DNA of 64,000 nt from Bacteroides eggerthii. GTDB taxonomy: Bacteria; Bacteroidota; Bacteroidia; Bacteroidales; Bacteroidaceae. The notes beneath the pieces are model-generated. The model searched no databases and was not told the origin of the DNA. It saw only the letters and a list, made by a program, of their open reading frames with translations. The translations under genes were made by a program, and so were the position numbers. Positions within the stretch are counted from its first letter, which is position 1. Each line of letters starts with the position of its first letter. Shown piece by piece: positions 9,199 to 47,874 of this stretch. The DNA is taken from the NCBI RefSeq assembly GCF_025146565.1, contig NZ_CP102258.1, forward strand, positions 310,001-374,000, in the 5' to 3' direction.

Positions 9199-9288
9199 GA
9201 AGTTAACTTCGGGTATACAGGATGTTAACTTCATAAAAACACAAAGTTAACATCATCTGCCGAATAAAGTTAACTTCATAAAGAGCAA
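9199..9288. repeat. Array 1: four 22-23 base units around GTTAAC
   Basis: Four copies of the palindrome GAAGTTAACTTC or close variants, with GTTAAC starting at 9202, 9224, 9246 and 9269, so the period is 22, 22 and 23 bases. Each unit is a 12-base palindrome plus about 10 unrelated spacer bases. The array lies between the manC stop and the shared terminator. The same 22-base architecture recurs at 21201 and 39470 with different palindromes. Confidence 0.8.
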
Positions 9289-18900: not shown

Positions 18901-19362
18901 TTCTCCCTTTACTTCCTGATTGACACACGCGTAGGCGGCGACGTTATTTCACTGACACAAGCCGGACTGGACTATGCAGGGGTAAGCAAAGCAACCGGTG
19001 ACGCCCGCAACGCAGGTCATTATATGCTGGAAGGACACAAGATCAGCGATGTGCAGAAGTTCTATCAAATGGTGGGCGACCGCGGCAACGGCACAACCGA
19101 ATTTTACCGCTACGACGGAACGAACATCCGCCTGCGTGAAGTCTCATTGGGTTATTCCTTCCCGCAACGGATGCTCGAAAAGACCGGATTCATCAAAGGC
19201 GTAGACCTTTCGTTGGTGGCACGCAACCTGTTCTTCATTTACAAAGACGCCCCGTTCGATCCGGATGCAACAATGTCAGTGGGCAATGACAACCAAGGTC
19301 TGGACACCTTCGGCATGCCTTCAACAAGAAACATCGGATTCAACATTAAATTCACTTTCTAA
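15940..19362 (+). CDS. SusC/RagA-family TonB-dependent transporter with STN domain
   Basis: A 1140-residue outer-membrane transporter. After a long signal region (hydrophobic core about 25-40) comes an STN signalling domain (about 50-120, VLSKIESQTEYLFVYNKK). A carboxypeptidase-regulatory-like beta domain (about 137-215), a TonB box near ETVVVTAMG (about 218-226), the plug (about 230-350) and a 22-strand barrel ending in NIKFTF follow. The STN domain marks it as a transducer that signals to the upstream FecR/ECF pair. The substrate is not shown: no carbohydrate-active enzyme is nearby. It is co-transcribed with the SusD-like gene 13 bases downstream. The leader is overlapped by a candidate antisense RNA. 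Confidence 0.96.
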   Translation: MRKISLNGLFCPKSFEIKQLLRAMKITLFLLLFVTFQAYCGNSYSQNAKVNIPSSQLRVGQVLSKIESQTEYLFVYNKKSVDVRRTVNVEAEGKSVAELLDEVFAGTSIKYVMEGKNIVLTKKSENTENTDGVQQERVTVKGVVTDSKGEPIIGANILEKGTTNGIITNLDGEFTLNAPANATLVISYIGYEPISIALNGRTSLKVQMKEEALALETVVVTAMGIKKKEASLTYSTQQVGGDELTRAKDPNMINALAGKTAGVSITRNASGLGGSAKVSIRGIRSANADGNNQPLYVIDGVPMLNSVAEQAYSAMGGNNDAGNRDSGDGISNLNPDDIESMSILKGASAAALYGSQAANGVILITTKKGKAGMQRIVFNSNLTVDHAICLPEFQDRYGASGATSWGTEDKNLKAYNNVDDYFSNGVTATNSLSIMTGKEKMQTYFSYANTTAKGIVDVNKLQKHNITFRETASLFNDRLTLDANVNLMTQKIKNRPTSGGYYMNPLVGLYTFPRGEDLSAYRDNNGFEKYDENRAMPLQNWYTDINGFNQNPYWLTNRVTSNDKRFRTLAALSANLKINDWFSIQARGNVDYINDNYEQKMYAGTAADVAHQNGRYIKMNRQDFMIYGDVMAMFNKTWNDWTLNAAIGSSINTTKVNSLSLDSGKSGLYKANVFTVPNMNLGGAGTSFIDETANQRRTIQSLFATAQIGWKESIYLDVTARNDWSSTLANTKSENSGFFYPSVGLSWIINKTLNLPEWISFGKVRASWAQVGNDLPIGITSPAQTITAGGVVQPIDYYFAEDLKPEISNSIEVGTEWKFFNSRLDFDFTFYRTDTKNQLIRVNTTAEQRPYRWINAGKIRNTGVEITLGATPLMNDDFRWKTQFNFATNKNKIVSLGGTPNFQYASGNVSMPYKMMVVEGGSLGDIYGNVFVRDESGKILLEPETDKDGKPNAKAGLPQVTTDKAAKIGNFNPDWTLGWSNTLTYKGFSLYFLIDTRVGGDVISLTQAGLDYAGVSKATGDARNAGHYMLEGHKISDVQKFYQMVGDRGNGTTEFYRYDGTNIRLREVSLGYSFPQRMLEKTGFIKGVDLSLVARNLFFIYKDAPFDPDATMSVGNDNQGLDTFGMPSTRNIGFNIKFTF

Positions 19363-19375
19363 ATACCCGAACGAT

Positions 19376-21001
19376 ATGAATAAGATAAAATATACAACCG
19401 CATTACTCCTCGGCGGACTCCTGAGTTTCTCATCCTGTACCGATAACTTTACCGACTTCAACAGCACCGACGGAGCCTATACAGACGAATTACAGAAGTA
19501 CGACAATCAAACCAACCTCGTACCTTTCTCCACCATTCAGAAAGGCATCATCTACCAGACCGGTGTAAACGGAACCGACTGGCAATATCAAATCATACAG
19601 AACTTGGCTGCCGATATGTTCTGCGGATATTTCCACGACATGAACGGCGCGTTCAATGCAAACAACTCCACCTACAACCTGAATAACGGTTGGACAAGTG
19701 CCATGTGGGTGTACACCTACGGATATGTCATGCCTTCCATCGCCGATGCCGAGAAACTGAACACAGAAAAGGAATGGCCTCTGTACCACGCCATTACCAA
19801 AATCCTTAAAGTGGCAACCCTTCACCGGGTAAGCGACTATTACGGTCCAATCCTTTACGACGGATTCGGAACCGCCGACCAAAAGCCACAGTCACAAGAA
19901 GAAGTTTACAAACGTTTCTTTGAAGACCTCGCCACAGCGGTGAATATATTGAAAGACTATAAGGGCGGCGTGTCTTTTGAAAGCGCCGACTTCATGATGC
20001 CTGAAGGCAAACGCACTCCCGCACAATGGCTGAAATTTGCCAACTCCCTGCGCTTGCGTCTTGCCATGCGTGTATCCAATGTGGCTCCCGCGCTGGCAGA
20101 AGAACAAGCCAAGGCAGCTTTGGACTCCAAGAACGGCGGCGTACTGGAAACTGCTAACGAAACAGTGGGGCAATACGGCATCCGCAACCCGCTGGGTGGT
20201 GTTGCCGGCTGGAGCGAAGTATATATGAATGCAAGTTTGGAGTCGTACCTGAAAGGCTATAACGACCCTCGCATCAAATCCTACTTCAACCTCGCACAAG
20301 ACGGCAGGGACAAAGAGGGAAACATTATTAAGGAAGTTGCCGGTGTGAAACAGCTAAACAGCATCGAAGGTGAATACAAAGGCGTCCGCCAGGGAACAGG
20401 CGTAGCCGACAACCGCTACTCCACCCACTCTCAGACCGCCATCACAACCGGCAGTAAAATCATCGTCATGAGTGCTGCCGAAGTATGGTTCCTGCGTGCA
20501 GAAGCAGCCCTGAGGAATTACACGTCCGAGAATGTAGAAAACTGCTATAAGCAGGGCATCACCGTCTCTTTCGCACAATGGGATGCCAGCGGCGTCAGTG
20601 AATATCTGGAAAGCGAAGAAACTCCGGCGGCTTATGTAGACGCATTCGATAAGAAATTCGATGCGGACGCACCGACAAGCATCACTCCGAAATGGGATGA
20701 AAGCGCCCCACTGGAACTGAAACTGGAAAGAATCATCACCCAAAAGTGGCTGGCTATCTATCCGGAAGGTTGTGAAGCATGGGCGGAACAACGCCGCACC
20801 GGTTATCCCCAGCTCATCAAGGTTGCAGTGAACAACAGCGGCAACACCATCAGCACCGACGATATGATTCGCCGTGTCTTTTTCAACCAAGACTACAAGA
20901 CGGACAACAAAGCTCTATATGACGCCTTAGTCAGCAAGCTGGGCGGTGCAGACAACGGTGGCACGCGCCTTTGGTGGGATGCCGGAGGGAATAACTTCTA
21001 A
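19376..21001 (+). CDS. SusD/RagB-family nutrient-binding lipoprotein
   Basis: A 541-residue surface lipoprotein (MNKIKYTTALLLGGLLSFSSC, lipid-modified Cys20). It caps the SusC barrel and captures substrate. SusD-type tetratricopeptide helices and the ending region RLWWDAGGNNF are recognisable. The SusD_2/SusD-like family is suggested by AEVWFLRAEAALRNY and ITQKWLAIYPEGCEAWAEQRRTGYP. The start at 19376 gives a proper signal peptide. The open frame extends upstream into susC and that part is ignored. A strong terminator follows 70 bases downstream, closing the operon without any enzyme gene. Confidence 0.95.
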   Translation: MNKIKYTTALLLGGLLSFSSCTDNFTDFNSTDGAYTDELQKYDNQTNLVPFSTIQKGIIYQTGVNGTDWQYQIIQNLAADMFCGYFHDMNGAFNANNSTYNLNNGWTSAMWVYTYGYVMPSIADAEKLNTEKEWPLYHAITKILKVATLHRVSDYYGPILYDGFGTADQKPQSQEEVYKRFFEDLATAVNILKDYKGGVSFESADFMMPEGKRTPAQWLKFANSLRLRLAMRVSNVAPALAEEQAKAALDSKNGGVLETANETVGQYGIRNPLGGVAGWSEVYMNASLESYLKGYNDPRIKSYFNLAQDGRDKEGNIIKEVAGVKQLNSIEGEYKGVRQGTGVADNRYSTHSQTAITTGSKIIVMSAAEVWFLRAEAALRNYTSENVENCYKQGITVSFAQWDASGVSEYLESEETPAAYVDAFDKKFDADAPTSITPKWDESAPLELKLERIITQKWLAIYPEGCEAWAEQRRTGYPQLIKVAVNNSGNTISTDDMIRRVFFNQDYKTDNKALYDALVSKLGGADNGGTRLWWDAGGNNF

Positions 21002-21070: not shown

Positions 21071-21108
21071 AAGGAGCAAAGTCGGGGGGACTTTGCTCCT
21101 TCTTTTTA
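21071..21108 (+). terminator. Terminator of the SusC/SusD operon
   Basis: AAGGAGCAAAGTC (21071-21083) pairs with GACTTTGCTCCTT (21089-21101) over 13 base pairs with loop GGGGG, then TCTTTTTAT. Confidence 0.92.
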
Positions 21109-21200: not shown

Positions 21201-21310
21201 TACCTACGGTTGGTACGGAATGTACCAACCGTAGGTACAACGTGTTCCTTAGGTTGGTAGGACAAGTACCAAAGGGTGGAACAACTCATACCAAAGGAGG
21301 GTATAAATTT
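21201..21310. repeat. Array 2: five 22-base units with TACC-N7-GGTA
   Basis: Five tandem units of exactly 22 bases start at 21201, 21223, 21245, 21267 and 21289. Each begins with an imperfect palindrome of the form TACC-N7-GGTA (15 bases) followed by 7 unrelated bases. Units 3 and 4 each deviate at one palindrome position. Units 1 and 2 are also mirror images, giving a perfect 16-base inverted repeat (21201-21216 with 21222-21237). The array lies in the 347-base convergent gap between the susD terminator and the 3' end of buk; the rest of that gap shows nothing further. Confidence 0.85.
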
Positions 21311-21348
21311 GGTATAGGTATCTCATTCAAATCATGGGCAGTATAAAT

Positions 21349-22410
21349 CTATTTGTATACCTGTATCGGCAGTTCCCCCCTCAATGCTCCAAGCACATTC
21401 AATGCCAATGCCTCCATTTCGTCCTCACCCGGATAAACATGCACCGGTGCAAGGAACGAGATACGTTCTTTCAGCCGGGAAATGATATAATCGGAATGTG
21501 CCATGCCACCCGTCAGAAGAATGGCGTCTATCTTGCCGTACAACACAACTGAAGCCGCGCCGATGCTTTTAGCGATTTGATAGATCATGGCATCCAGTAC
21601 CAGTCCGGCATGCCTGTCCCCCTCTTCTATCCGGCGGACGATGGCAGGAACATCTGTCGTGCCCAGATGGGCCGTCAGACCGGCACGCCCGGAGATACGC
21701 TTTTTAAGTTCGTCTTTTGTGTAGCGGCCGGAGCAACAAAGGTCGATCAACTGTCCTGCCGGAAGTGTCCCCGCACGCTCCGGCGAAAACGGTCCTTCGC
21801 CGTCAAGCGCATTATTAACGTCGACAGCCTTGCCATGATGATGGACACCGACAGATATGCCACCGCCCAAGTGACAAACAATCAGATCCAGATCTTCATA
21901 CCTGACATGCTGTGCGGCCGCATATCTGCGGGCAATGGCGCGTTGGTTCAGCGCATGCCAGATAGTGATGCGGGGCATCAGAGGAGATCCTGTGATACGG
22001 GCTATCTCATCCAGCTCATCCACAACGCCCGGATCGGCTATGAACGCACGACAACCGGGAAGCAGTGTGGCAAGTTCGGAAGCTATGAGGCATCCCAAGT
22101 TGCAGGCGTGGGTGCGCATGGCATGCAGAATATCATCCAGCATGGCATCATTCACCTCATATACGCCGCCCGGTATCGGTTTCAGCAGTCCGCCGCGTCC
22201 CACTATGGCGTCAAACTCAAAAGGAATATTATCAGCCTCCAGCTCTTTCAGCACCAGGTTCTTGCGGAACTCAAACTGGTCGATGATGTGTGAGAAAGAG
22301 GACAGTTCGTCCACCGTATGGCGGATGTTACGCACCAGACGGGGGGTATCGTTCTCGTATACGGCAATCTTGGTCGAAGTGGAACCGGGGTTGATGACGA
22401 GTATTTTCAT
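21349..22410 (-). CDS. buk: Butyrate kinase
   Basis: A 353-residue acetate/butyrate kinase-family enzyme of the ASKHA fold. It phosphorylates butyrate or branched-chain acids reversibly and yields ATP in the acid-forming direction. The phosphate-binding motif NPGSTSTKIAVY is at residues 7-18. VCHLGGGISVGVH (about 180-192) and ILLTGGMAHSDY (about 297-308) are typical. It lies 11 bases downstream of the phosphate acyltransferase gene and forms a ptb-buk operon. In Bacteroides this pair more likely handles branched-chain acyl-CoA from amino-acid fermentation than butyrate; that is inference. Confidence 0.95.
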   Translation of the reverse strand: MKILVINPGSTSTKIAVYENDTPRLVRNIRHTVDELSSFSHIIDQFEFRKNLVLKELEADNIPFEFDAIVGRGGLLKPIPGGVYEVNDAMLDDILHAMRTHACNLGCLIASELATLLPGCRAFIADPGVVDELDEIARITGSPLMPRITIWHALNQRAIARRYAAAQHVRYEDLDLIVCHLGGGISVGVHHHGKAVDVNNALDGEGPFSPERAGTLPAGQLIDLCCSGRYTKDELKKRISGRAGLTAHLGTTDVPAIVRRIEEGDRHAGLVLDAMIYQIAKSIGAASVVLYGKIDAILLTGGMAHSDYIISRLKERISFLAPVHVYPGEDEMEALALNVLGALRGELPIQVYK

Positions 22411-39469: not shown

Positions 39470-39535
39470 ATTAAAAGGCTTCTAATATAGCATTAAAAGC
39501 CTTTTAATATCATATTAGAAGCCTTTTAATGCTAT
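39470..39535. repeat. Array 3: three 22-base units around ATTAAAAGCCTTTTAAT
   Basis: Three tandem units of exactly 22 bases begin at 39470, 39492 and 39514. Each is a 17-base palindrome (ATTAAAAGGCTTCTAAT, ATTAAAAGCCTTTTAAT, ATTAGAAGCCTTTTAAT) followed by a 5-base spacer. Units 1 and 3 are also mutually complementary over 19 bases (39470-39488 with 39512-39530). The array lies in the divergent gap between pepP and rpoN. Confidence 0.88.
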
Positions 39536-47642: not shown

Positions 47643-47667
47643 CAGCGCATTTGAGAAAAAACAACAT

Positions 47668-47741
47668 TCTTCCTTAGCTCAGTCGGTTAGAGCATCTGAC
47701 TGTTAATCAGAGGGTCCTTGGTTCAAGTCCAAGAGGAAGAG
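47668..47741 (+). tRNA. tRNA-Asn (anticodon GTT), first copy
   Basis: A 74-base tRNA: acceptor TCTTCCT pairs with AGGAAGA, the anticodon loop CTGTTAA gives GTT, the T-loop is TTCAAGT and the discriminator is G. CCA is not encoded. An identical copy follows 99 bases later. Confidence 0.96.
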
Positions 47742-47766
47742 CGAAAGAGAAACTCGAATGTAACAT

Positions 47767-47840
47767 TCTTCCTTAGCTCAGTCGGTTAGAGCATCTGACT
47801 GTTAATCAGAGGGTCCTTGGTTCAAGTCCAAGAGGAAGAG
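47767..47840 (+). tRNA. tRNA-Asn (anticodon GTT), second copy
   Basis: Identical in sequence to the copy at 47668 and followed by the shared terminator. The 5' flank AACATTCTTCC is also shared, so the duplication included a few bases upstream. Confidence 0.96.
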
Positions 47841-47841
47841 C

Positions 47842-47874
47842 AAAAGGTTCGTCATGCAGGCGAACCTTTTTTGT
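47842..47874 (+). terminator. Terminator of the tRNA-Asn pair
   Basis: AAAAGGTTCG (47842-47851) pairs with CGAACCTTTT (47861-47870), then TTGTTTG. Confidence 0.9.

Follow-up and report, generated by a model that had tools for sequence, protein, structure and literature searches.

REP/BIME elements and their RAYT (TnpAREP) genes share several features with the arrays described here, including intergenic palindromic units arranged in arrays, species-specific words, a gene placed beside its own repeat and scattered copies, but the present arrays have a fixed 22-bp lattice and their partner gene encodes DUF6078, a domain of unknown function. A partner gene flanked by its own repeat is found in 58 of the 70 DUF6078 genes considered. 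A relationship to REP/RAYT by homology was rejected: the Y1 transposase family (PF01797) has no match in the B. eggerthii genome, while 5 of 14 control genomes were positive. REP palindromes carry a GTAG or CGTC tag at their foot, according to PMC3733652. Of 143 units of the present arrays, 131 have C or T directly after GGTA and 9 have G, and there is therefore no GTAG tag.

Tandem operators of cooperative dimeric repressors, which include the phage 434 operators and the NikR and HipB sites, also have dyads of about 15-20 bp placed about two turns apart. They differ from the present arrays, which mostly hold five or six sites and favour gene ends over promoters, and whose sites are no commoner in isolation than control: 7 isolated TACC dyads (the authors' own count) lie outside arrays, against 7 in the control, and an autoregulatory promoter site was rejected on this basis. 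Type III toxin-antitoxin systems, of which ToxIN is an example, likewise place a small protein gene beside a short tandem repeat with a family-specific word, but there the repeat lies 5' of the toxin gene, whereas here it is 5' in 1 of 70 genes and 3' in 58 of 70, the unit is a 22-bp palindrome, and dispersed copies occur at a distance from the gene. CRISPR loci resemble the arrays in having regular short repeats separated by variable segments, but their unique spacers of about 30 nt contrast with a period of 22 bp and interiors and spacers of 7 nt, far too short, at many loci; no cas genes are among the families listed by Pfam scans of the neighbours of a subset of loci.

Tandem palindrome arrays of this kind are undescribed in the titles and abstract openings that made up most of the literature searched, subscription journals and preprints being mostly beyond reach, and in passages of PMC3733652, PMC5771137 and PMC7366714. 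The initial annotation had likewise named no family that fits, and this view is upheld, as no known repeat family was found to fit and the genome has no Y1 transposase match. RNA families were also rejected, the window (the whole 64-kb stretch analysed, positions 310001-374000 of a single 4,206,509-base contig) holding only two tRNAs in Rfam at gathering thresholds. These two tRNA genes (47663-47846) form an almost perfect 99-bp tandem duplication, the unit of which takes in spacer sequence.

The three arrays of the window

The array at 21201..21303 consists of five units at an exact period of 22 bp, formed by TACC-N7-GGTA dyads with 7-nt spacers. It had been annotated as five TACC-N7-GGTA units at period 22 in a convergent gap, of which the array, the period and the gap stand; only units 1, 2 and 5 are perfect, and units 3 (TTCC...GGTA) and 4 (TACC...GGAA) have one arm mismatch apiece. 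The array is capped at 21311..21322 by a half-site GGTA, 11 bp past the last GGTA and within GGTATAGGTATC (reverse complement GATACCTATACC). A terminator-like hairpin at 21071..21107 (AAGGAGCAAAGT...ACTTTGCTCCTT followed by a T-run) adjoins the array and is separate from it, and is retained in the three relatives compared, with the array present or absent. The gap is bounded by a plus-strand gene at 19265..21001, presumably SusD-like, and by the convergent minus-strand gene at 21349..22410, which we take to be butyrate kinase (buk) and whose 3' gap is the orthologous locus compared between species. Its named relatives, in B. clarus (95%) and in B. gallinarum and B. propionicigenes (both 94%), put the window within Bacteroides close to B. 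clarus.

The array at 9199..9277 holds four GTTAAC dyads, starting at 9199, 9221, 9243 and 9266, and the array at 39470..39530 holds three ATTAAAAG..CTTTTAAT (ATTA...TAAT) dyads spaced 22 bp apart, starting at 39470, 39492 and 39514, with unit 1 the reverse complement of unit 3. Both had been reported, with periods of 22-23 and 22 bp respectively, and both are present, the former now corrected to successive spacings of 22, 22 and 23 bp. None of the three arrays, the cap or the hairpin is assigned to a strand. The gap at 9199 is convergent, as is that at 21201, and the gap at 39470 is divergent. The array at 39470 is present at the same locus in B. clarus, with two paired changes read by eye, which an RNA hairpin, a single-strand hairpin or templated correction would also give.

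A class of palindrome arrays in Bacteroides

Triplets of palindromic sites were scanned at every period from 14 to 60, after removal of low-complexity repeats, in 464 kb of B. eggerthii comprising the window and 20 evenly spaced 20-kb stretches. Period 22 was found at 10 places and period 44 at 3, with one place each for 21, 33, 43, 52 and 57; periods 14 and 35 appeared as well with the low-complexity filter off. The same scan of 530,119 bp from other genomes, made up of 80 butyrate kinase loci, gave only the periods 22 (27 places), 23 (7 places) and 44 (11 places), and block-shuffled sequence of these loci contained no palindromic triplets. The class of intergenic elements defined by structure, which had been proposed from the window, exists: a period of 22-23 bp predominates in the B. 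eggerthii sample and in the loci of other Bacteroides genomes, and rather than being no commoner than in shuffled sequence, such periods were absent from the shuffles.

No period-22 array was present in 20 stretches (273 kb) from other families of the order, in which isolated hits occur at other periods. One genome of these families, which has no DUF6078 match, carries a 23-bp ACAA..TTGT repeat in two places (L146:8234 and L146:9650). Intergenic short repeats of the ATTAGTG or AATTCAT types, with lags of 14 and 21, were seen elsewhere (L004:5705, L017:7839, L020:10946, L031:644 and L032:13209); several of these lie, by eye, directly 5' of start codons, and they fall outside the palindromic array class.

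Across the B. eggerthii genome, the pair pattern TACC-N7-GGTA-N7-TACC-N7-GGTA, allowing two mismatches at most, has 68 matches against 1 for the reversed pattern used as control, and 15 of the loci fetched hold at least three units. Other period-22 words in this genome include AAACRSATSATSYGTTT, with 27 matches against 0 in the control, GTTAAC and ATTAAAAG. GTTAAC is found at about ten loci, with a weak pair count of 15 matches against 11 in the control, and several units can be made out by eye at another seven GTTAAC loci, none of the seven being flagged by the scan with its fixed 4-bp arms.

The TACC family was characterised from 31 arrays (15 in B. eggerthii, 12 in B. clarus, two in genome G022 and one each in genome G018 and B. 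propionicigenes), leaving out L074, which has a different word. The unit is R-TACC-N7-GGTA-Y followed by five bases, with a 17-bp dyad near RTACCAACSGTTGGTAY, and there are five or six units in 26 of the 31 arrays. Neighbouring strict sites up to 120 bp apart at the loci examined (n = 86) are separated by 22 bp (78), 44 bp (6) or 66 bp (2) and by no other distance, and an interior of 7 bases occurs in 125 strict sites, compared with 4 to 25 sites for each of the other lengths from 0 to 14. Of the 31 arrays, 20 carry an additional exact half-site 10-11 bp past one end only, 11 lack it altogether and none is capped on both sides (P = 0.01), which makes many TACC arrays directional; this cap points to a gene 3' end in 14 of the 20 (P = 0.12).

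Five of the 12 arrays fetched from B. clarus are orthologous to arrays of B. eggerthii, and their units can be paired one for one. Divergence between the two species in these five arrays amounts to 12/224 positions in the arms (5%), 9/46 in the R and Y positions, 57/196 in the interiors (29%) and 45/115 in the spacers (39%), and the difference of the arms from interior plus spacer is strong (P = 6e-16). By this comparison of orthologues, the arms are constrained and the remainder drifts.

The combination of different words and shared geometry seen within the window extends to a single locus across species, as other species have other words in the same gap and the geometry is kept. Of 78 loci (the 80 above minus two left out), 16 have an array 3' of butyrate kinase, and about nine words can be distinguished on the authors' reading. 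These are TACC in B. clarus and B. propionicigenes, ATTCYC in B. cutis, TTTACC in B. timonensis, B. stercorirosoris and B. oleiciplenus, TGCAG at period 23 in B. fragilis, AGTTTCCC in B. pyogenes, GTTTAAGC in Mediterranea and AACATSSSS in B. neonati, with others besides.

Linkage of the arrays to DUF6078 genes

Directly behind a DUF6078 gene stands a TACC array that B. eggerthii, B. clarus and B. cutis all retain. The DUF6078 family (PF19555) was found in 30 of the 37 Bacteroides genomes searched, in one to six copies and in multiple copies in 20 of them, and in none of 24 sampled genomes from other families of the order; it is also present in Parabacteroides and Treponema records. Of 75 listed matches, 70 were examined and five that were fragmentary or degraded were left out. 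Linkage was scored as a dyad array of period 22 or 23 no more than 400 bp 3' of the stop codon. Such an array was found at 58 of 70 DUF6078 genes, with a median distance from the stop of 55.5 bp and with 50 of the 58 no further away than 100 bp, and the scan shows no 3' array at the other 12 loci. An array within 450 bp on the 5' side was found at 1 of 70. The background was 9 of 316 open reading frames in the B. eggerthii sample and 37 of 536 at the other loci, giving Fisher P values of 6.6e-47 and 2.4e-43, respectively.

A fresh sample of four plasmid records and six scaffolds from a phage collection gave an array at 9 of 10 DUF6078 loci (Fisher P = 9e-10), a count in which the array of L313 falls within what is annotated as the beginning of the following gene and the gene of L320 is cut at the end of its record. 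This sample includes a plasmid of Treponema saccharophilum and two Parabacteroides distasonis records, and the linkage extends across genera and into one other phylum. The T. saccharophilum plasmid pTS1 (L311) has arrays on both sides of its DUF6078 gene, with period 22 behind and period 23 in front. Genome G014 has an array and no DUF6078 match.

An alignment of 68 DUF6078 members, numbered by the first sequence of alignment A1, has invariant Cys17, Cys22, Cys28, Gly73 and Gln117 and a nearly invariant Cys59. Weak matches to an Xre-like helix-turn-helix (HTH) were obtained for 5 of the 68 members (best E = 1.4e-4), covering residues 85-126 and falling below the curated cut-off in one member inspected, and 6 of the 68 matched an EGF-like family, which is unrelated. 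Comparison with solved structures gave nothing better than E = 1.1, and three DUF6078 members had no match among NCBIfam models. No mention of DUF6078 was found in the literature that could be searched, which took in few subscription journals and no preprints. Through the linkage, this domain gains a first concrete partner, and most of its genes gain a readable candidate word.

The three DUF6078 genes of B. eggerthii include one that shares the word of the array at 21201. This TACC-type gene lies at 2,789,349-2,789,780, 2.46 Mb from the array of the window, and the word of the window array has similarities of 0.88 and 0.92 to the arrays beside the DUF6078 genes of B. eggerthii and B. clarus, respectively, against a null maximum of 0.56. 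The arrays at 9199 and 39470 reach at best 0.52 and 0.40 against DUF6078 words, which is within the null, and the AAAC, GTTAAC and ATTAAAAG families of B. eggerthii have no DUF6078 word matches. Of the three arrays of the window, which share their geometry, only the one at 21201 could be tied to DUF6078; the three may thus not form a single system, and there may be other partners beside DUF6078.

Matching within genomes varies for the words of the butyrate kinase gap. For B. clarus the best match is a DUF6078 word from the same genome (0.91), for B. cutis the own-genome word comes second (0.67) behind a word from another genome (0.76), and for M. massiliensis there is no match among the DUF6078 words of its own genome. 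Genome G018, which is 99% complete, has TACC arrays, and its three DUF6078 genes carry other words. The arrays of G018 are degraded, with 2 of 22 TACC pairs perfect against 40 of 68 in B. eggerthii, and degradation is also seen in G022 (2 of 14), which has a TACC-type gene.

Among the DUF6078 genes themselves, paralogues differ in their words and close orthologues agree, with a mean word similarity, over 56 of the 58 arrays, of about 0.3 for proteins less than 35% identical that rises to 0.91 for those more than 80% identical. The corresponding Mantel correlation between protein and word (rho = 0.18, P = 0.0005, same arrays) partly reflects common descent. With dozens of such pairs occurring naturally, DUF6078 would serve as a model for the divergence of DNA recognition.

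Candidate mechanism and competing explanations

The initial annotation had offered a phased protein-binding array, tandem small hairpins in RNA or the product of one amplification mechanism. The first of these is best supported, because the arms are conserved, the spacers are unpaired and such arrays are linked to DUF6078 genes. DUF6078 is the probable reader, since arrays usually lie directly behind its genes and at least one word recurs in many other intergenic gaps of its genome, and from these sequence relationships the protein is likely to be a word-specific DNA binder. The word of the array at 21201 is probably read by DUF6078 as a dimeric DNA binder, with a stacked filament that would act as a boundary or roadblock.

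One DUF6078 dimer would occupy each dyad of about 17-20 bp and, because dyads recur about every two turns, the dimers would be stacked on nearly one face of the DNA, forming a short nucleoprotein filament over five or six sites. In the weakest step of this proposal, the filament would separate neighbouring transcription units as a boundary or roadblock, and would do so more often where gene ends converge. By the authors' open-reading-frame scoring, which supplied the gene calls, the TACC arrays lie in 14 convergent, 13 tandem and 4 divergent gaps out of 31, and the convergent share is modestly raised over the 28 of 123 gaps used for comparison (P = 0.02); the divergent (4/31) and tandem (13/31) positions weaken the boundary idea. 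An array can further be copied to another gap minus its flanks, of which one case was seen, and words diverge along with the DUF6078 genes, a trend that is observed and is confounded by descent.

That case of copying also bears on an explanation in which DUF6078 mobilises the arrays in the manner of REP/RAYT, with the gene flanked by its own repeat, the scattered arrays as non-autonomous copies and the arrays mainly selfish. The array beside the DUF6078 gene of L236 shares 73-74 bp at 98.6% identity with the arrays behind butyrate kinase in two B. pyogenes records, while the flanks are unalignable, so that two loci can have an array in common without the gene. The butyrate kinase gap of B. gallinarum has no array, and both of its flanks are retained, as is the terminator hairpin beside it. 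Two other gaps of the window have an array in 2 of 30 loci examined at each, and arrays therefore come and go. This patchy presence, the intact empty gap, the array common to two loci with different flanks, the gene-plus-repeat organisation and the dispersal would all fit mobilisation. However, the B. eggerthii genome has no RAYT-type Y1_Tnp match, the positions invariant in DUF6078 hold Cys, Gly and Gln, none of them suggestive of a known transposase site, and the arms of old dispersed copies are under purifying selection, which dead selfish copies would not be expected to show. Mobilisation by DUF6078 is accordingly regarded as unlikely.

Slightly less credence is given to the arrays acting as RNA, in which tandem hairpins in the 3' untranslated region of the DUF6078 mRNA would bind DUF6078 much as in a type III toxin-antitoxin system or an RNA sponge. 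Such hairpins would fit the position of the array 3' of the gene, no more than 100 bp away in 50 of 58 cases, the strong folding of the arrays in silico and the two paired changes seen by eye in the array at 39470. With all units counted, complementarity between the interior half-sites exceeds that of shuffles (z = 2.1, 3.1 and 4.6), but it is weak after removal of repeated interiors (z = 0.4, 1.0 and 2.2). The spacers are not complementary beyond shuffles (z = -0.6 to -1.6) and are thus unpaired, complementarity at the outer R-Y positions falls below that of shuffles (z = -2.1), the sequence of the arms is itself kept, beyond what pairing would need, and dispersed arrays occur in every gene orientation. 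Since the arms are kept, the spacers are unpaired and interior pairing is weak after deduplication, the evidence on balance favours recognition of double-stranded DNA over RNA hairpins.

An origin with no trans-acting partner, through replication slippage and inverted duplication at palindromes with DUF6078 hitch-hiking, would account for inverted duplicates that span spacers, seen by eye at L158 and L023 for example, but is very improbable given one period across unrelated words, the conservation of the arms and a DUF6078 linkage that reaches a second phylum. At L023:7344 the array with the spacer-spanning inverted duplication, again read by eye, is of a TTCCA type and lies upstream of an HU-HIG gene.

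The reading of array words by DUF6078 dimers could belong to a wider arrangement, put forward tentatively and with doubt outweighing confidence, in which many paralogous small zinc- and HTH-like DUF6078 proteins with private words would mark the genome, as a new kind of bacterial system, by coating 22-bp lattices that serve as swappable insulators at the ends of transcription units. Lattice and position would then be conserved while words are exchanged between species, and the gene-plus-array cassette would spread between phyla. The arrays raise the question of their role at gene ends in Bacteroides, a major gut genus.

A metabolic regulon was rejected, the scanned neighbours of the arrays being a mix of housekeeping and surface genes. 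Along the B. eggerthii chromosome, the 15 TACC loci skip 1.58-2.71 and 2.97-4.06 Mb (P = 0.028), two empty stretches of 1.1 Mb each that approximately mirror each other across the origin-terminus axis deduced from GC skew. These two stretches hold 8 of the 11 AAAC loci. AAAC arrays also lie about 1.1 kb upstream of 16S rRNA genes at L014:8556-8648 and L025:17816-17919, inside a near-identical segment of several hundred bases, with a FopS small RNA nearby in L014, and a further AAAC array at L301:1726-1830 overlaps the 3' end of a DUF6064 (PF19540) gene.
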